NCBI RefSeq assembly: GCF_020921035.1
Contig: NC_063150.1
Coordinates: 2,294,001 to 2,358,000 of the forward strand
Direction of reading: 5' to 3'
Length of the DNA: 64,000 nucleotides
Origin: Rhodamnia argentea
Lineage: Eukaryota; Streptophyta; Magnoliopsida; Myrtales; Myrtaceae
In this document: one piece after another, positions 3,674 through 22,153 of the stretch
How the letters are laid out: the number at the start of each line of letters is the position of its first letter
Numbering within the stretch: position 1 is the first letter of the stretch
Position numbers and translations under genes: made by a program
Notes under the pieces: model-generated
What the model saw: the letters and a program-made list of their open reading frames with translations, nothing else
Databases searched by the model: none
What the model was told of the DNA's origin: nothing

Positions 3674-4290
3674 ATAAATTATCCATCAAGGCGTTTGGGC
3701 TAGAAGATCATACCAATACCATTGCTTCGCTTGTCGTATCTCATTTCTAAGAACAGTCTAATGGTGTGCTCGATGTCCTTCAAAACTGACGTGCATGCGT
3801 GTCGAAATCGATGATGGTGCAATCTTACAGAGAACATATTTATGCATCAGCTTTAGCATGTCTAGTGTCACCATTGTTCATTATAAAAGAGGTGGCTTCT
3901 ACACAAGACAGCATATTCTCCTCATTTACGTCTTATACCCTTTCACACTAAAATGTACAGGAGCATGAACTTCGTAAGTTCGAGAAGGAAGCAAACTCAG
4001 GCCACAAAAATGCAAACGAACCACATGGTTTCTAATAGCCAAAGTCAAAATAAAAGTGTTCTACAACAACCCAACATCGTCATGTTCCTGAAGATGTAAA
4101 CATGTCCACCATCAACCAATCCTCATGCTCCCAGAAATGAAAAGAACACCACACCCGGGTCCAAATACACCATAACCACGGTCCAGAGTACAACACACAC
4201 AAAGCCCCGTATGGGAATGAATTGGCTCTAAGCGTGTCCAAACAATTGAGTTGGCTGCACATAGGCAGCTATCGGATGGATATCCGTTGT
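3674..4290 (-). other. 3' untranslated/downstream region of the K+ channel beta subunit gene
   Basis: This stretch follows the stop codon of the aldo/keto reductase gene on the minus strand. No exon, RNA gene or repeat with clear ends was found. A long 3' UTR is likely in the part nearest the stop. Confidence 0.4.
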
Positions 4291-7200
4291 CTACCTAAAT
4301 GAATCAGGACGCTTTGGCTTACTTTGCACAACGGCTTCGATCTTTTCCATCACAGCAGGAGTCAGTAAGGGGATGACATCAATAGCCTTCATGTTCTCTT
4401 GAATCTGAAAGAAAACAGGCAGCATGATTAACCATGTAAAGGATATATGATGACTTCTGAGTTTTCTAAGGGCAGTAATCAGGGAGACTACATGATTGTA
4501 TTATACTGTTCAAAGTTCAGTCTGTTTCACAATACGTACTAAATGTACAGATCCAAAGCAGACTAGTGTACTATCTTAGAAAAATATATTTTATCACGAT
4601 ATCCAATCTACTCAGCTAGAGAAAAATTTTGCAGATCATATTGTAGTTTAACTTTATAGGGGCTCCTTTTGGAGGAACTTCAACGAAAATGGATAACTGT
4701 GCAGATAATAACTCTTCTTGACTGACCTATTCAAGTAACATTTTGACGAGCAGCAAGAACTGCCTTCTTATTGGTCTTTCCTCCACTTAATTGAATATAT
4801 TTCTAACCTGAGCAACATCCATGAGAACTCAAGTACCCCTACCACAAGATGGGGGCTTTAGATTCCACAGGTTTCGGCAGAAAAGTTCAGCTGTTCTCCA
4901 GTTTATAGCATCTACTTTCAAAAAGAAGTACCCTAGAGTTCTTACTCCTAGTTAATGCCTCAAAGGAAGACCTCAGTCCTAACTGCTAATGAACGACACA
5001 TATGGACAGCTTTTGAATTCCTGATACAAACCCCAACCTACACATAACCCGAAGTTATGCACATCCGCCACTCCTAACGATTGATGGGAGTCTAATGATT
5101 GCAATGTGCCAAAGGTTTATGGTTTTCTCAGTAATAAAAATGTGTGCCCAAAAAAAAATGTAATACCCTAACTTTATTCCCTGATATGTCCTGTAAAAGC
5201 CTGAATCCAGAGAACACCAATACATAACAAATGTTTTTAATACCTTAGATCCACAAAACCATTAACCTCAGGGAGAGATGACCGTAATAAGCTTGAAACT
5301 AGCAACTGGCAAATTGGAATATTACCCACAAAAAAGAATCATTTTCTAAATATTTGACCATTATGAGATTGGTAAGCTACAAACAAGTTTTAAGTTCTTT
5401 AATTTTTTGATGTCTCACCCTTCCTTTTTGACTATGGTCTCTCAAGTCTGGGATCTTGAAATTTATAGGAATCCTATGTTCCATCCCTGCCAAAAGCTCA
5501 AGTTACTCAAGGACCGGCTTAAGCAGCTTAACAAGGATTTTTTTTTTTTTTCTGATATATCGGCCCGTACGTCCGAAGCCAAGGCTACATTAATTTCTAT
5601 CCAGGACTCTCTTGTTATGGATCCTTTTAATCAGGTGTTGGCTAATCAGAAAAGGAATTAGCTCAGGATTTTCTCTGTCCTCCGTCTCCAAGAGGAAGCT
5701 TTCTATAAGCAGAAGTCTTGGGTTCAGTGGCTTAAGGAAGGGGACCTAAATACCAAGTATTTCCATCATTTTGTTAATAAGAGGCAGCTTGGTAATAGAA
5801 TTCTCTCTGTTGTTGATAGTTCTGCAGCTCTCTTGACCAATCCGGCTTCTATCCAGCAGCATATTGTCTCTCATTTTGAGGGCCTGATTGCTCCCTCTAG
5901 TTTACCTGCTTAGCCATCTGTTCAAGAGATTCGGTCAATTATTGAGCATTCTCTTGATTCCAATCAGTACCGGTTTTTATCTCTACCTATTTCTGATACT
6001 GAGGTTCGTAACACTATGTTTGCTTTAGCCGCTGGCAAGGCTCTAGGGCATGATGGTATTAATGTTGAATTTTTCAAAGGCACTTGGGATATTGTTGGCC
6101 CAACAGTGATTTTGGCAGTTAATGATTTCTTTGGGTCTGGATACCTGCTTCGGGAAACTAATGCTACCATTCTTTCTTTGGTACCTAAAGTCCCTAACGC
6201 TATTGCTACAAATGATTTTAGGCCTATTGCTTCCTGCAATACCATTTACAAGTGTATTACGAAGATTATGGCTAATAGGCTTGCTTGTGTTCTTCCTGCT
6301 CTTATTAGCCCTCATCAAAATGCCTTTGTTAAAAGCCGTTGTGTTAGTAACAACATACTTCTTGCTCAAGAACTTTTCTGTGGGTTCCACCATGAGCCCT
6401 ATTTGCCCAAACGTGCCATCAAAGTAGACTTCCAAAAGACTTATAATACCGCGGATTGGGATTTTCTGGCAATAGTTTTGCAAGCTTTTGGGTTTCCCGA
6501 TATGTTTACTAAGCTTATTGTGACTTGTGTTCATACTCCGAAATTTTCTATTTCTATTAATGGAGAACTTCATGGGTTTTTTTTCTAGTGGAAGAGGCAT
6601 CCGACAAGGAGATCTTATGTCATCTTATCTCTTTACCCTTGAACAACCTCGGCAGCCAGGCTTTAAGTTTTTTTGGAGATGTAAAGCTACTCAGCTCTCT
6701 CACCTGTTCTTTGCAAATGATGTTATTTTTTTCGCTGAGGCAAACCCAGTTTCTATCTCTTTGCTAAAGGTAGGGCTTGATAAATTTTCCAATTGGTCTG
6801 AGCATAGGCCTAATGTGACCAAGAGCGAGATTTTCTTTTTGGGGGGGCTCGGAAGAGCTTCTGGGGCAGCTTCTCTCTTCTCTCGGGTTCCAAGAAGACT
6901 ACTTGCCAGATTGGTATCTTAGAGTTCCCATTATTGCCTTAAGGCTTAGCAAGGTGGATCGCAATTCTTTGGTTAACTCAATCACTGCTAGAGCCCAATC
7001 TTGGTCTCAACGGTTTCTCTCTTTTGCCGGCCGCTTGCAACTTATTAAATTGATTCTTCATGCTCTTCATGTTTTTTGGGCAAGTGTTTTTATCCTTCCC
7101 AAATCAGTTTTATCTCGTATTAAGCAGGTCCTCAAGCAATTTCTTTGGAAAGGCCCGGACTTGGGCGTTGGTGGCGTTGAAGTTTCTTGGGACGATGTTT

Positions 7201-14563: not shown

Positions 14564-17240
14564 TAAGGGAAAAAAATTTCCAAAAAAGTACTATGATTTA
14601 TTGTCCGGCGGTTCATTCAGTCTTAAACCTTTTAACGTTGTCAATTTAGTTCTAAACATTTTGACGATTTGCCAACGTGGGCACGCGTGATAACACTTCA
14701 ACTTTAAAAATTAACTTTTGGCAAGAAGTTAATTTCTCTACTTTTGCTCTAAAAGTTGATTTACGATCAGATGAAGTCGTTTGATAGTAGGACAAAATTT
14801 CCTCTTTTGGAATAGAAACTCATTCGATAATAATTGAAAGTTTCTACTTCTGGAACATTATTAACACAAAGTTTTCTACGAAAAATTATAGATCATAACC
14901 TAAAACGCGTGTTATTTGAGAAAAATGAAATATAAATACCGACAAATTTACGTGTAATTTGTCATTTAATTATTTTATGTAAATGGGGATCGATTATATG
15001 GGAAAAATTCTATTAATGAATATGATGAGCGAGCTGATATATCCACGCTAAAAGCATGGGTAGTTCCGGTGTTTCCTCGCCTGTGCCTCTAACGTGGCTT
15101 CTGTCGCAATGTACATAGTATATAAACCTTCTTCGTACCTAAACCGTCTTTAGTTCGGAGGTGCATCATGATACATTCAGTAAATCATATCATTTGATGA
15201 ATTGGTTTATGACAGGCAACAATTCTTTTCAATAATTTGGTCCGGTACATGTTGAGAACTTAAAGAAAAATTCCAAGTGAGTGTATTTGAAAATAACATT
15301 CACAAAACCTGCATAGTGCTTTGAAGGGTGTGAAGAGTATCGACAAACAGAAACATACATGTATTTTACCCTCTTAACATCAATTTTTCTTGCTTTTAAG
15401 AATTTGAGAAACAAAATAAATGACTTGAGAAATTCAAAGACGACTACAACAATAGTATACTTGTGTCCTTGTGAGATTACTTGATCCACTTTAAAATAGT
15501 TGTGGGATGCCATTTAACTAATTTGGGTCAATTACTCAATCTACTTTGTCATGATTGTGTCTTTGTGGGATGCCATTTAACCAAATCATGAAACATTTTT
15601 TCTTATAATTTGTTAAAAAAATGAAATTGCTAAAATATTTTCATTATTTTTTTATTTAATGGCCTGAGGAGATCAACGGAAGCAGACGGCAAAGCGCTAG
15701 CAGAAAGTGATGTCCTACTTGACTTTCATAAGATAAGAAAAACATTTTTTTTAAAGCGCATCAGATTTACTCAAACGCTTCTACTTCCTTCTCGTTGCAA
15801 AAGAATATAAAGCCATCGAAAGGCGCAACAAGAGGCATGACACGCGCCTAATATGTAGTCTTTCCCCTATTTAGCTTTTCCTCGGACTGTAGAGCTAGTT
15901 GATAGGCCACTTTCCACATTTAATGCGTCAGTCATACTTTCATTGCGGTGGACCGGCTTTCATAAAGCACCTTGTGGACAAACTACCACCAAACTGGACT
16001 TCCACCGGCTAGTCTGGCGAATGACTAGTAAAAACTTAGGTAGGTCGATAATGAACGAACAGGCTCTTTTCGCAACCTAGTTACGAACTGGCTTATAGAA
16101 GAATTCCTTAGACTGTGGGTTCTAATGGTTAAAATTTAAATAACCTGCCTTATTTTAATTTAAAAAAAAAGGTTTTGAGAGTTCCATTTTAAGTAGTAGT
16201 GACAATTCAATGATGTGGTTTAGGCAATGTATGTTTTTTTCCTTGTTGACCAAAAGGCATTCTCATCTGGTTAAGTGTCCGACTTTCCGGATCAATCTAC
16301 TACTGTCTTCCTAGATAAGAGGCTAACTAAGCTTAAGATGAGTTCCATTGAGAAGAGTCTATCTTTCTTACTCACCAGTAGCAGATTGTCTCTTTTCGAT
16401 TTTAATTTCTTGAGAGAAGAAACTTTTTTTTTTACTTTTGAAAGTTGTTAAAAAATAACTTATGAAGCAAAAATTGCTTAAGAAGTAGACAAATGAAGTT
16501 ACATAATCAAATAGATTTATGCTTCAAAAGTTACATTACTAAGTGGATTTCTATTCCAAAAGCATTTCTAGAGCAAAAATTTTGTTTCAAAAGTGTTACC
16601 ATGAGCACCCATAATCTTTTATGCCAATTTTAGTGGGAAACCGTTAATATGGACTCTAGGCATCTTGCGTGACATGTTCAATGCTAACGTTAACAGTTTT
16701 TGTGATTTTTTAAACTTGTTTGAATTTTTATTGATTTTCTCTTTTTTTTTTAATCTTTTCTTTCTTTCCTTTTTTTTTTCCCCCTTCTTTTAACACAAAA
16801 CTGATAGAGGGTCGTCGGCTCTTGGGCGAGAGCCAGCAATCCTCACCGGCCCTTGGAGAGTGCCCAAAGCCCTTGTCAACCACGAGCAAGGTTGGTAGTC
16901 CTCGCTGTATCTCGGCAAGGGCTTGCGAGCCATTGCCTAGGCCCTCACAAGCCACAACTACTGCTTTGTCACCCTTGCCCAAGGTTTGGCAACCCCCACA
17001 AAAATAAGAAGAAAAATAATAAAATAAAACATAAAGCAATTAAAAATGAAAAATTTATCCACGTTATCGCCATCGGTGCCATGTAGGATGGCAGATGTCC
17101 ACATCAGCCAAAATGGGCCAAAATGATTATATTGATAAATCGTTAAAAGATTTAGAATTAAATTAACATAATTGAAAGGTTTAAGACTAAAATTAGGCGC
17201 CATACAACAAATTTAGGACTTTTTAGACGATTATGCTATT
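14564..17240. mobile_element. Family A MITE interrupted by a family B element
   Basis: A family A left arm (GGGAAAAAAATTTCC, then TCTTAAACCTTTTAACGTTG) runs from about 14567 to 14678. It stops where a family B terminus begins (14679). Family A resumes after 16610 with GCCAATTTTAG, the degenerate ATATGGACTCTAGGCATCTT core, a T-rich stretch, the GC-rich middle and the mirrored right arm ending near 17225. The terminal CCC of family A is not preserved, probably because this end took part in a tandem duplication. Confidence 0.55.
14679..16610. mobile_element. Family B element nested in family A
   Basis: The left end (GGGCACGCGTGATAACACTT) and the inverted right end (GGGTGCTCATGGTAACACTT) match the family B termini at 2983 and 3673. 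Subterminal AAGTTGATTT/AAGTAGAAA words lie at 14705-14860 and 16400-16590. The 1.5 kb interior has no recognisable transposase. It could be one long non-autonomous element or two element ends that surround unrelated DNA. Confidence 0.45.
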
Positions 17241-17571
17241 TATAATAGCTGTACTAAAAACAAGCTTTTAAAGTGGTTTGAATTTGATTGTAGGGCAGGC
17301 TTATCTAGTTTAACACAATCTAAATATGTCATCTAAATCATTGTTATTGACTAGGGGCGAGCAAATTGCGTTAGCATTGCCAAAAAGGAAAAATTTTCAC
17401 TGGCTCGTTATTTAGGTCACCATGTCTTAGACAACAACACCGATCCTATCGCTCAACAACAACTAAACCTCGCTCCTTTCATAGTTAAGTTGAATGGATG
17501 GCCCATTTCATATGCATTCTCCCCATATGTACGAAGATTGTTGTGGAAGTAGTAATATGGCATCTTTGTTT
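16717..17571. repeat. Tandem duplication, copy 1
   Basis: The segment contains the 3' two thirds of a family A MITE plus about 330 bp of flanking DNA. It is repeated directly downstream in the same order. The shared marker GCTTTTAAAGTGGTT occurs at 17264 and again at 18182. Confidence 0.85.
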
Positions 17572-17579
17572 ATAAATTT

Positions 17580-18492
17580 CTTTGAATTTTTATTGATTTT
17601 CTCTTCTTCTTCTTCTTCTTCTTCTTCTTCTTCTTTTTTTATCTTTTGTTTCCTTTTTTTTTCCCTTCTTTTAACACAAAACCAACAGAGGGTTGTCGGC
17701 CAGTAGGCGAGGGCCAGCAACCCTCCCCGACCCTTGGAGAGTGCTGCAAAGCCCTTGCCGACCATGAGCAAGGGCGGTAGTCCTCGCTGTATCTAGGCAA
17801 GGGCTTACGAGCCATTGCCTAGGCCCTCACAAGCCACGGCTACTACTTCATAATCCTTGTTCAGGATTTGGCAACCCCCTGTAAAAAAAAGAAGAAAAAT
17901 AATAAAAATAAGACATAAAAAAAAAACTAGTAAAAAAAATTAAAAATGCGAAATTTATCCACGTCACCGCCATCTGTGCCATGTAGGATGACATGACGTC
18001 TACATCAATGAATTTCCAGCCAAGATTGGCCAAACCGATTATATGGACAAATTGTTGAAAGATTTAGAACTAAATTTGCATAATTTTAAAGGTTTAAGGC
18101 TAAAATTAGAAGCCACACAACAAATTTAGGACTTTTTGGACAATGATCTCGAATGACTTAGAATAGCTATACTAAAAACAAGCTTTTAAAGTGGTTCGAA
18201 TCTAATTGGAGGGCAGGCTTATCTAGTTTAACGCAATCTAAATATGTCATTTAAATCATTGTTATTGACTAGGGGTGAACAAATTGTGTTAGCATTGCCA
18301 AAAAGGACAAATTTTCACTGACTCGTTATTTAGTTCACCATGTCTCAGAAAACAACGCGGATGCTATCGCTCGACAACAGCTAAACCTCGCTCCTTTCAT
18401 AGTTAAGCCGAATGGATGGCCCATTTCATATGCATTCTCCCCATATGTACAAAGATTGTTGTGGAAGTAGTAATATGACATCTTTGTTTACA
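17580..18492. repeat. Tandem duplication, copy 2
   Basis: Direct repeat of 16717-17571 with scattered substitutions. A (TTC)n run at about 17603-17633 has replaced the plain T-run of copy 1. The frames seen here (poly-serine or poly-glutamate) are by-products of that microsatellite. Confidence 0.85.
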
Positions 18493-18809
18493 AAATACAC
18501 AATTAGGAACAACATAATAAATTTGACATGAGATGCATACTTTGGAAAGTAAAGTGGATACATGTCTAAAGAAAGGCTGCAAATTTCTTCTTTTCTTTTC
18601 TGTTCTTTTTTTGTTTTTTAAAGGTTGGGCCTTTGCCCAGTGGAATGGCCTAATCTAACGAAGCTAGGAACCTTATAATAAGCCCAAGAACATTGTTACT
18701 TGAGTTACTTTTGTTTTGGGCCCTCTTTAATTATATCCCTATTGAATGTTCAACTGCACTAAGGTAGGACATCAAGGTGTACACAATTGTCCAAGGTTTC
18801 ATCTAATAT
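18493..18809. other. Spacer between tandem duplication and solo LTR
   Basis: No gene or bounded repeat was recognised. The last five bases (AATAT) are the left target duplication of the LTR. Confidence 0.5.
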
Positions 18810-21800
18810 TGTCGCGACCTAAAATTCTTGATCGAACTTCGGGTTAATGGATTACCAAATTAATTAAATGAATTAATTAACCTAGCCCGAGCTCTCCCAA
18901 GCTCTACCAATTCGCAACTTAGGTTCACATGATTTCAATCAAAGGATTTTCGAGTTTTGGAGCCGCCACTAATCTTTTTCGGAAGGTAGATTAGATACCT
19001 AAATAAAGTATGGGAGAATACTTTATTTTCTGCTAACCAGAGTTTTAGGTTCGGAGACTTGATTATGTTAATTTTTCAATTAACACCCTTTCGATACCAT
19101 TCTTGTGAAAATTTTCTTGATTGGCAAATCCAATTGATTTCAATGAATGAATTTAGGTGCAATTTATTTTTGGGTTTTCTTGATTAGATGAATGCTATGC
19201 AACTATATGAAATGAGTGATGATGATATTGAGAAAATGTATTTTGATGCATATAAAGGAAAGTGAATTCTAACTACATGATGTGCAACATAAAAACTAAC
19301 CTATATGACATGCAAGATGATTTATTTACATGTAGTATAGTAAAAAAAATTGCATGAATGACTTATAATAATGCATGACAAATTAGACTATATGAAATGC
19401 ACATGGAATGTCATAACCTTTTAATGAATTTTCGGTTTTATGATTTTTGTTCCGACAATTAACACAAATTAATTAGTCAAAATCCAATTTATATTAAGAG
19501 TCTTCTTAAGATGTAATTTCCGAAAAAAAAATTCATTTAAGGTCAAGATATGATGATTTTTTATGATTTTTATGATTTTTTTAATGAAAAAAAAAAGAAT
19601 CAAATAAGAATATAATAAACCTTGAGCATAATACACCTTATAATTCGAATTTTTCCGATGAGTTCACTTCGTACCCGGGAGGTGGGGTCAGAAGGTGATT
19701 TATTCACGTCGTACCCCGGGGGTGGGGTCGGATAGTGAATTTATATATTATGAAATTTGTCGGTCCGGTCCCAAAGTTGTGGGATAGGTTAGACAATTTC
19801 ATTGTGCGGATGACGTCGTACTTCGGGGGTGAAGTCGGATAGTCATCCACAATGCATATATTCCGAGGGACAAGGCACAGGGGAGCATGTATTATACTCA
19901 AGGTGGATTATAAAAATATTTGAATTAGAATAAAGTATTAAAAAAAATGATGTTCGGCCAACTAAGGGTAGGTGCCGAAATTTTAAAGGGGATAGGCCCC
20001 TATCCACAAAGGATATTCATATATTTCAATTTTAGGAAAATTTATCTCTTAAAATTTTGAAGTGTATCCAGATAATTCTCCAAATCTTAAAAGATATATT
20101 TAATTCAAATATATAGACTTATCCGATATGGTCGAAAATATCCAAAGATATGCTACAAGTCCAAAGATATGCTCAAGATATATACAATTATCCACAAAGT
20201 CAATAAGGCAAGGTCTATCGGAGAGTTATCTCAAAAATTTCGAAAATCATGAGATTGTACTCGAGGATTTCAAAAGAGATTATCTTGCCTAATGTGTCAA
20301 AATTCAATTTCTTTTTTGGATGAGGAGCTTTATCTCATGGAGATTTCAAAAGGCTAGTATAAATCCCAATTCAATCTATGAACTTATCAAATCCCCAATT
20401 CAATCTATGAACATATCAAATCTGGCAATCTACTCGCGAATTTCAAAACAATAATATCTTGCCGGTTGAGTATCATCTTGTTCAAGCACAGAATTATCCA
20501 ATGAACTTTTGAAGCGTGTGAACTAGTTCAGAAATTAAACAAGACAAACATCTAGCCAAGGTATATTAGAGATTTCGAAAACTGAGGAAAGGGAATTTAA
20601 CATGATGGTCCTTTGCAGGTAATTGATCAATGGTTAAATCTCTTAGCGACAAGATAATTTCTTTTAGCACTAGAACAAATCACCAAGTTGAGCAAATCAC
20701 ATTGATAACAATAACGTGAGAATATCCAAAGTTAGAGCAATGTTACCCGACTCGTCAAGTTTATCCCTCCTTGGAGTAAAAATCAATCCACAGATATAGA
20801 ACTCGATGATGGACAACAGCTAAGCTCGCAACTAATCAGCCCCGGCAGTGAAGTTTTGCATGAAACGGTGTGGTAGATGAGTCCAAACGGCAAGCTAAAA
20901 AACCTGCACTAATCAGTGAACAAAAAGAAGGTCCAAAACAGGCTGTTTTGGACCTCGAATAACAATAAGACACCACTGGACAGCAACCAAAACCCCGCCC
21001 AGGTAACCGCTTCGATCTACGGCGTCCGCAGCTTGCTTTGGCACCAAATAGCAAGGTAAACACTTCTGGAAAGCAGCTTCAGACTTGAACTAACACAGCA
21101 TGAGGGAGGTACTACAACGGCACAAACGGGTCGGCACACGCGTGCGGCGGCTCCTTCATCGATGGTGAGCGTCGGAACGAAGAACAAAGACCGTTAGAGC
21201 TATAGGTATTGGGCGGAGGAAACAAGGATGCCACGGGTGGTTGGACTCGGCCAAGAAGCTTTCCCTTCCTCCTCTCCTTACCTCTTGTTGCTTTACCTCT
21301 CACGTGAACTTTTGTGTGCAGAATTTTTTTTTTTTTTTTGAACGTGAATGAGCTCTTGTTTATATAGAGTCCTGAGCCAGAGTCCTAGTAGGAGCAGGAG
21401 TTGTTGGAAACCGTCGGATTATCAACCCTAGCTAGAATAGGATTTATTATGAACCGTTAGATTTAGGTTTCTGAATCCGATAAAACTCTAGCTAGATAGG
21501 ATCCCCAAATCATTAGAACTCTTGAATTATTTGAACTTCGAGGAGTCCTAATCCACTAGGACTCTATGAATCTCGGCCAAAGGGGGTAATGGTGAAAGAA
21601 ATGGCTGAAAATGGCCTCTTTTGTGGGTTTAGAATGCAATTTTAGGCCTAATTGGGTTCTAGATGATTAATGACTAATTAACTAGGGGCTTCACTTCACG
21701 ATGGGCTAATTTGGAGTCAAATTAAGGACCGAACCCATCATGGAATTTCAACCAGCCTTTGTAATGCCTCATTCGAATTTTCTAATCAATCCATGGGCTT

Positions 21801-22148
21801 GTCTCACATTCTTGAACTCAACTAAGGCTTTTCTAAATAACGGACATTTAACCGAAAGCCTTATTTGAATAATTTAAGCTTGAACGAAATAAAATTGGCT
21901 TGAAGTTAAGTTCAATTAGCTTAATAAATTTGGCACACCCTCTGCCCGAACAAAATTTTTTCAAACTGAATATGATCTTGGTGAACGCTAAAACTAAGCT
22001 CAATTGACTTACCTCTGATTCTAAATGTAATGACTGACAAAAATTGAATATGCAATGCATGAGAAATCATTTTTGTGAGAACAATGTCTAATTCTCATTT
22101 TATACTTATGTAAATGATTTTCTAAAAATCAAAATTTAGGTGTTAACA
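18810..22148. mobile_element. Solo LTR of a large LTR retrotransposon, 5-bp target duplication AATAT
   Basis: The 3339-bp unit starts TGTCGCGACCTAAAATT and ends AAATTTAGGTGTTAACA. The ends mirror each other as TGTnnnnACCTAAA. AATAT flanks it on both sides (18805-18809 and 22149-22153). No second copy of either terminus, no primer-binding site and no gag/pol frame occur inside, so a solo LTR left by recombination is the best reading. LTRs of this size are known in the Tat/Ogre branch of Ty3-gypsy, but lineage assignment is a guess. A TATATA-containing stretch at 21359-21366 could be the LTR promoter. A two-unit direct repeat (AATTCAATCTATGAAC) lies at about 20369-20425. Confidence 0.78.
19620..19903. 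repeat. Branched array of four hairpins enclosed by a 16-bp stem, within the solo LTR
   Basis: The outer inverted repeat is CCTTGAGCATAATACA (19620-19635) against TGTATTATACTCAAGG (19888-19903), with one mismatch that becomes G-U in minus-strand RNA. Inside are H1 19662-19700, H2 19702-19740, H3 19751-19801 and H4 19800-19854. H2 and H4 share identical unpaired parts (GTCGT, loop GGGGGT, CGGATA). Five base pairs of their two stems differ in a compensating way: ATTCAC/GTGAAT versus GATGAC/GTCATC, and ACCCC/GGGGT versus ACTTC/GAAGT. H4 is extended by CATTGT/ACAATG. The pattern is what a selected secondary structure would give. Its function is unknown. Confidence 0.75.
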
Positions 22149-22153
22149 AATAT

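Follow-up and report, generated by a model that had tools for sequence, protein, structure and literature searches.

A solo LTR of Rhodamnia argentea, in the 64,000-nucleotide stretch of DNA analysed here (the window), contains an interval laid out as four successive hairpins within a long inverted repeat. The locus raises the question of whether this layout is maintained by selection, whether it acts as RNA or as DNA, and what its task may be. The original prediction had proposed a structure kept by selection, most simply in an RNA transcribed from the LTR.

The features described in the window copy are present (Table 1). The 16-bp outer inverted repeat contains a single mismatch, C-A on the plus strand and G-U on the minus strand. 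The unpaired pieces of H2 and H4 (GTCGT, GGGGGT and CGGATA) are identical, and five stem pairs differ between the two hairpins, three in the lower stem and two in the upper stem, the partner being changed each time. H3 has the two-tier design with other letters, and H1, described as a weaker version of H2, is a degenerate tandem copy of it (TRF, period 40, 83% matches). The 284-nt interval folds better than 200 out of 200 dinucleotide shuffles on both strands, with z-scores of -5.64 (plus) and -7.65 (minus). The pattern GTCGTANNNNGGGGGTNNNNTCGGATA, with up to 3 mismatches, matches the window twice, at H2 and H4 only, against 0 expected. No Rfam family matches the window; in the LTR region two hits lie far below the gathering threshold, neither of them inside the array. 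A MITE-like insertion was considered and rejected, as no target duplication is seen beside the outer stem. A separate, perfect 11-bp hairpin, GGTCCAAAACA-GGC-TGTTTTGGACC, is found at 20930-20954 of the same LTR.

Table 1. Coordinates of the solo LTR, the hairpin array and the putative promoter in the window.
Feature	Position	Strand	Remarks
Solo LTR	18810-22148	minus-strand sense	3339 bp; ends TGTTAACACC...GGTCGCGACA
Target-site duplication AATAT, left	18805-18809	.	5-mer identical to right copy
Target-site duplication AATAT, right	22149-22153	.	
Four-hairpin array, family A	19620-19903	-	
Outer stem, 5' arm in sense RNA	19888-19903	-	99.0% of cells paired in 18 family-A copies; partly compensated in B and C
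Outer stem, 3' arm in sense RNA	19620-19635	-	99.0% of cells paired in 18 family-A copies; partly compensated in B and C
Junction segment GCTCC..GTGCCTTGTCCCTCGGAA, conserved, just inside outer stem	19861-19886	-	206 exact matches in own genome; reversed control 0
Hairpin H4, first in sense order	19808-19848	-	lower stem GGATGAC/GTCATCC, upper stem ACTTC/GAAGT, loop ACCCCC
Hairpin H3, second in sense order	19752-19800	-	
Hairpin H2, third in sense order	19702-19740	-	lower stem ATTCAC/GTGAAT, upper stem ACCCC/GGGGT, loop ACCCCC
Hairpin H1, fourth in sense order	19663-19701	-	weak tandem copy of H2; missed by two-tier descriptor
Sense TATA box CTATATA	21361-21367	-	transcription start predicted near 21335

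Close copies were analysed in the genome of the window (74 contigs, 346.7 Mb in total), where 40 copies of the array region with 93-100% identity were scored from 126 candidates. Identical loops, put forward as a conserved feature, hold for the window copy but not for these 40, in which loop positions are polymorphic: position 19730 is G in 12 copies, A in 27 and a gap in 1, and position 19837 is G in 24 and A in 16. The exact identity of the H2 and H4 loops is partly peculiar to the window copy. Stems are broken independently in single copies, as expected of dead copies, and the variation among close copies is mainly decay after insertion. Counted over the 40 copies, stem cells are paired in 2021 instances and unpaired in 55 when read in sense, against 1857 and 219 in antisense; as polarity by site is not significant (p = 0.07 and 0.32), a small number of frequent variants accounts for this difference. 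Paired sites, pooled over families, are somewhat less variable, with p = 0.16 for all variants and p = 0.02 for variants seen at least 2 times. RNAalifold forms the four hairpins from the 40 copies, with consensus energies of -83.6 in sense and -80.6 in antisense; with 54 A copies the energies are -50.1 and -53.1, the antisense being slightly better.

In 18 more varied family-A copies, the given structure pairs 92.5% of cells, and H2 is not formed by RNAalifold. Two pairs changed on both sides were counted against 1.4 in shuffles (213 of 500 shuffles as high), in a test where the register of the H1 lower stem fitted badly (46% of its cells paired). The array is very probably a selected structure, in an estimate that was lowered slightly because of this null covariation in family A.

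More distant copies were collected with a query restricted to the flank (19930-20350), which gave 45 matches at 40 places. Twelve of these places are already-known A-array copies; the other 28 were fetched. Had the structure been fortuitous, the hairpins might have been absent from most copies of the LTR; the array is present in all 28, which were assigned to family A (15), B (10) or C (3) according to the family representative that they resemble. B and C retain the outer stem and the junction segment, and a C-like variant, D, also keeps both, together with hairpins of largely different letters. For the outer stem, 14 pairs counted from the inside were compared among the three families: 8 are the same throughout, 3 have both letters replaced, 2 have a wobble as the alternative, and 1 does not pair in B. 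Most letters of the B and C hairpins are unlike those of A, while some pieces recur, such as ACTTC/GAAGT. Folding of the collected copies with RNAalifold, as had been proposed, gave the outer stem and four two-tier hairpins for the B-like and the C-like group alike. The z-scores of single copies (100 shuffles each) are, in sense, -7.0 (A, L100), -3.1 (A, L096), -4.9 (B) and -4.4 (C), and in antisense -4.3, -2.7, -5.6 and -2.9, in the same order.

Twenty junction matches, mostly picked for unusual sequence, were fetched from 100 listed of the 206 in the genome. The outer stem is found in 18 of them (scan score of at least 10), L144 and L154 being without it, and the third hairpin of L151 has no 3' arm. 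One copy, L092, is recombinant, with the 5' outer arm of family A, the 3' arm and hairpins of family B, and a partly mismatched outer stem. The two LTRs of a B element (L159/L160) share 99.4% identity over 2666 nt, without a difference in the 270 nt that follow the junction GCTCC, and those of a C element (L161/L162) share 98.9% over 2615 nt; families that moved recently thus carry the array.

Covariation was measured in the B-like group (alignment A1, 15 sequences, 85 pairs; L092 was excluded because its outer arms belong to two families) and in the C-like group (A2, 15 sequences, 80 pairs). Six pairs are changed on both sides in A1, against a shuffled mean of 1.3, and seven in A2, against 2.2; in each case 1 of 500 shuffles was as high. 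By alignment, five of the seven in A2 rest on two sequences each, the related L138 and L139, in which helix 7 is off register. Further pair types are not clearly in excess of shuffles in either group (35 against 32.7 in A1, 21/500; 35 against 35.1 in A2, 347/500). With the partners slid by 1-3 columns, at most 4 both-side pairs are counted in A1 and at most 2 in A2. The slid structures pair 34-51% of cells against 97%, a figure biased by the derivation of the structures from the same alignments, and related rows inflate such counts.

Compensatory stem change, proposed together with conserved loops as the signature of selection, is above shuffles in A1 and A2 but shows no excess in the window's own family A. 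Independent change of stem positions, which would have spoken for a fortuitous structure, is seen in single copies, whose stems break as those of dead copies would, but the B-like and C-like groups covary beyond their shuffles. Folding by accident of repeated sequence was already disfavoured. H1 is a plain tandem copy of H2 and there is no covariation within family A, as an accident would have it, but the shuffle tests, the other families and the covariation of the B-like and C-like groups make this account hardly credible.

The hairpins have recurrent unpaired elements. Four arrays (A_win, B_L140, C_L112 and D_L138) have 15 hairpins with a clear upper stem, the second hairpin of D being excluded. 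In 11 of these, AYG was read on the 3' side of the upper stem, its A being the first or second letter after the stem; AYG permits a 2-bp step with a bulged A. On stems of at least 4 bp, the loop ACCYCC is carried by two stems of the window array (A_win), and the loop RAUCUY by two stems in each of B_L140, C_L112 and C_L149, three in D_L138 and one in L147; L151 has neither loop. Shuffled means for repeated loop hexamers are 0.003-0.027. The loop motif of A differs from that of B, C and D, and such a loop code (ACCYCC in A; RAUCUY in B, C and D) may distinguish each family's RNA for its own protein. As a test, the two-tier descriptor is less powerful: 1-4 hairpins per representative are found, and the result is reached in at most 4 of 100 shuffles for 5 of the 13 representatives and in at least 15 of 100 for the other 8.

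These recurrences bear on an account in which one hairpin arm is rewritten from the other by template switching, in reverse transcription or in replication, and complementarity is maintained without function. Stems that are replaced between families and still pair are in keeping with it, as are the lack of compensatory excess among close family-A copies and the lack of G-U polarity described below. Copying of arms does not, however, account for loop hexamers and an AYG by the bulge that recur across hairpins and families, and the outer arms, about 250 nt apart, are compensated too. Maintenance by mutation is considered improbable.

Ogre elements can form large parts of plant genomes, and their primer is tRNA-Arg. 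The sequence TTGGCGACTCC lies after the LTR end in L060 and L159 and is a candidate tRNA primer site. The window LTR is flanked by a 5-bp duplication (AATAT), within the 4-6 bp, mostly 5 bp, of Ogre elements. Internal regions were read near three family-A copies (L060, L061 and L062). L062, which sits between two A-type array matches and is assumed to belong to a single element, contains an ORF without Pfam match, taken for gag, a G-patch ORF, an ORF with reverse transcriptase and RNase H (RVT_1 + RT_RNaseH), and an ORF with RVT_3 followed by an integrase core (rve); one ORF ends at 4126 and the next begins at 4466. The RVT_3 domain is presumably the extra RNase H (aRH), and it has the placement between RH and INT that is given as a rule for the Ogre lineage, common to Retand, in the accessible text of PMC6317226. 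L060 has an ORF (937-1935) with PF10536 (plant mobile domain) and DUF7745, between an A-type LTR end and a piece, from 3114, of an ORF that is taken for gag, its start being near-identical to that of the first ORF of L062. An extra ORF with the plant mobile domain is found in 57% of Ogre elements according to the same excerpt (PMC6317226). L061 contains a gag-like piece and an LTR start. By these gene contents the three regions fit the Ogre lineage as it is outlined there, and the window LTR fits an Ogre/Tat-type (Ty3/gypsy) element.

In all three internal regions (L060, L061 and L062) the genes are antisense to the window plus strand. The RNA of the element thus corresponds to the window minus strand, and the sense order of the hairpins is H4, H3, H2, H1. 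An RNA of the minus strand had been hinted at in the original prediction; with the minus strand as the sense strand, by gene direction and TATA box, such an RNA is to be expected. Within LTR positions 300-1000, to which the search was confined, a CTATAWA motif occurs in sense in 22 of 23 LTRs and in antisense in 0 of 23 (shuffles: mean 1.66, maximum 5). The 23 comprise the window LTR, 14 of 20 long A copies (the LTR start was not recognisable in the fetched piece of the other 6) and 8 B/C LTRs, which include two same-element pairs. The predicted start and the array could both be placed in 20 LTRs, in which the array begins 1030-1968 nt downstream of the start. Since the array is 1.0-2.0 kb downstream of the start predicted from the TATA box, it would sit in the transcribed leader. 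The promoter had at first been assigned to a TATA-like site at 19485 that 21 of 21 family-A LTRs have; this stretch is missing from the compared copies of B and C, and the evidence for the U3 TATA box is better.

Other signals lie along the same strand. A run of at least 5 G shortly after the U3 TATA box was seen by eye in 15 of the 22 TATA-bearing LTRs (L159, L160, L163, L164, L166, L065, L066, L068, L070, L072, L074, L075, L078, L079 and L081) and lies perhaps at the start of R. The minus-strand hairpin at 19001-19029 (sense sequence AAAATAAAGTATTCTCCCATACTTTATTT) contains an AATAAA that 21 of 21 family-A LTRs share, and it resembles a hairpin with a poly(A) signal close to the end of R. The sense 3' end of the LTR (18800-18919, minus strand) folds well, with a z-score of -4.6 for a 120-nt window (60 shuffles).

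Sequence variation gives no strand signal: G-U and A-C variant types over the alignments A1-A3 number 73 and 70, so that the polymorphism is silent on which strand is selected. Consensus energies favour the sense in A1 (-74.2, antisense -57.4) and A2 (-66.8, antisense -48.0) and are about equal in A3 (-61.6, antisense -59.5). Majority wobbles flanked by pairs are too few to count, with 3 G-U and 0 A-C in the outer stem and 6 G-U, 2 A-C and 10 others in the whole scan. This lack of polarity and the strong z-scores on both strands would suit an element acting as DNA, the inverted repeats being protein binding sites or forming cruciforms. Against such an element, which has a small chance of being correct, the array is downstream of the putative promoter in the 20 LTRs with both located (TATA search limited to 300-1000), and dyad symmetry is lacking in the asymmetric internal loops and the bulged A. 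The array probably acts as RNA, a preference over DNA that rests on position and promoter direction. The proposal of a structure kept by selection, most simply in an RNA, is supported within limits, namely the null result in family A, the variable loops, the stems broken in single copies and the lack of G-U/A-C polarity.

With a rough probability of 0.45, the array is a cis-acting RNA structure in the leader (R-U5) of an Ogre-type element that is bound by protein at several sites, recognition by Gag being its task. Transcription would start in U3 near 21335 on the minus strand, placing the array about 1.4 kb into the RNA. The outer stem would close a multi-branch junction displaying several copies of one hairpin module, made of an upper stem of 4-5 bp, a hexanucleotide loop, a bulged A by a 2-bp step (AYG, on the 3' side), an internal loop and a lower stem. 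Between families the stems would change and still pair, loop and bulge recurring among the hairpins of one RNA. Repeated loops and bulges, in a structure that is kept while its letters change and that lies in the putative leader, most readily suggest a platform on which one protein would bind in several copies. The most likely task would be recognition of the genomic RNA by the element's Gag, for packaging or dimerization, followed by export and translation; packaging taken by itself is a tentative assignment. More doubtful is the wider proposal that Ogre-type elements carry an undescribed class of cis-acting RNA, in which a junction and hairpin modules show the same loop and bulged A to one protein and whole stems are substituted from one family to the next.

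The CTE of simple retroviruses is located near the 3' end of the coding part, whereas the array is in the putative leader, away from that end. This argues against a nuclear export element, the hairpins of which would bind a host or element protein that takes unspliced Ogre RNA, with its intron, into the cytoplasm, in the way that the CTE uses NXF1. In favour of export, internal loops recur along the long stem of the array, and Ogre RNA of pea and Medicago has an intron that is spliced in only part of the transcripts (PMC6317226, in part). The CTE, a stem-loop of 150-175 nt with two internal loops, recruits NXF1-NXT1 and brings unspliced RNA to export (excerpts of PMC7551171); it is one long hairpin, unlike the four hairpins of the array. 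A role in export is regarded as unlikely. A structured leader could also bring ribosomes to ORF1/gag past upstream AUGs, by internal entry or shunting, and the 1030-1968 nt of leader before the array contain 7-26 upstream ATGs (20 LTRs). In pararetroviral shunting, a short ORF ends just before the stem. Of the 20 LTRs, 3 have a short ORF whose end is no more than 25 nt from the stem base, and two of these LTRs belong to the same element; shunting as in pararetroviral leaders was rejected, and a translation element is rated slightly below an export element.

Gag recognition remains the preferred reading, and known structured RNAs resemble the array in part. The barley element BARE belongs to Ty1/copia. 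Conserved signals for dimerization and packaging are mentioned for this plant element in the accessible part of PMC3735527, a paper on a plant element, which describes no covarying multi-hairpin array and says that beyond BARE little is known of the packaged RNA of LTR retrotransposons; BARE is a different element from the present one. The retroviral packaging and dimerization signal Psi (HIV-1, MMTV) has several leader hairpins of conserved structure (PMC3848034, PMC11449360, both in part). A leader location, as packaging signals have, is predicted for the array, which is downstream of the TATA box in the 20 LTRs with both located. The array differs in lineage, in an outer stem of at least 16 bp enclosing four two-tier hairpins, and in its place upstream of the primer site, deep in R-U5; Gag binding is putative. 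Ty3 is a Ty3/gypsy element with structured genomic RNA, but its 5' UTR is 193 nt long and no repeated hairpin array is described for it in the available text (PMC11381356). The LTRs of Sireviruses carry repeated palindromic motifs, according to excerpts of PMC2829016; these are short, mostly with CGG-CCG, and upstream of the TATA box, whereas the array consists of long imperfect hairpins downstream of the putative TATA box. Retrozymes are plant retroelements with a structured RNA, a hammerhead ribozyme (PMC4918200, in part), whereas the array matches no Rfam family.

Searches outside the genome gave no relative. The loop pattern and the junction pattern each had 0 loci in viral_contigs, and blastn of the LTR against plasmids and phages returned none. 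A variable-gap version of the loop pattern found 2 viral and 6 genome_contigs loci, which were judged to be chance, their folds being without paired arms. Patterns for the LTR start and a conserved box had 3 and 1 viral loci, with similarity to the LTR over at most 29 nt, and were rejected. No description of such an array was found in the open-access literature searched, at the level of titles and abstract starts. A structure recognisable by covariation offers a handle on how RNA is sorted between translation, export and packaging, a question testable with an RNA of roughly 290 nt. With the family-specific loops, it could be tested whether co-resident elements discriminate their own RNA.

In the 20 longer family-A copies, the LTR is conserved from 18810 to about 20010. 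Diversity rises to 0.3-0.5 at 20060-20300, where the aligned stretch ends, and matches farther on are patchy. The LTRs look like mosaics, the sense-upstream part (20060-22148) being swapped or hypervariable and the downstream part (18810-20010) common to the copies. Just left of the solo LTR, a segmental duplication (16865-17935 and 17240-18457) has a spacing of about 880-920 bp, and its copies are 77-92% alike.
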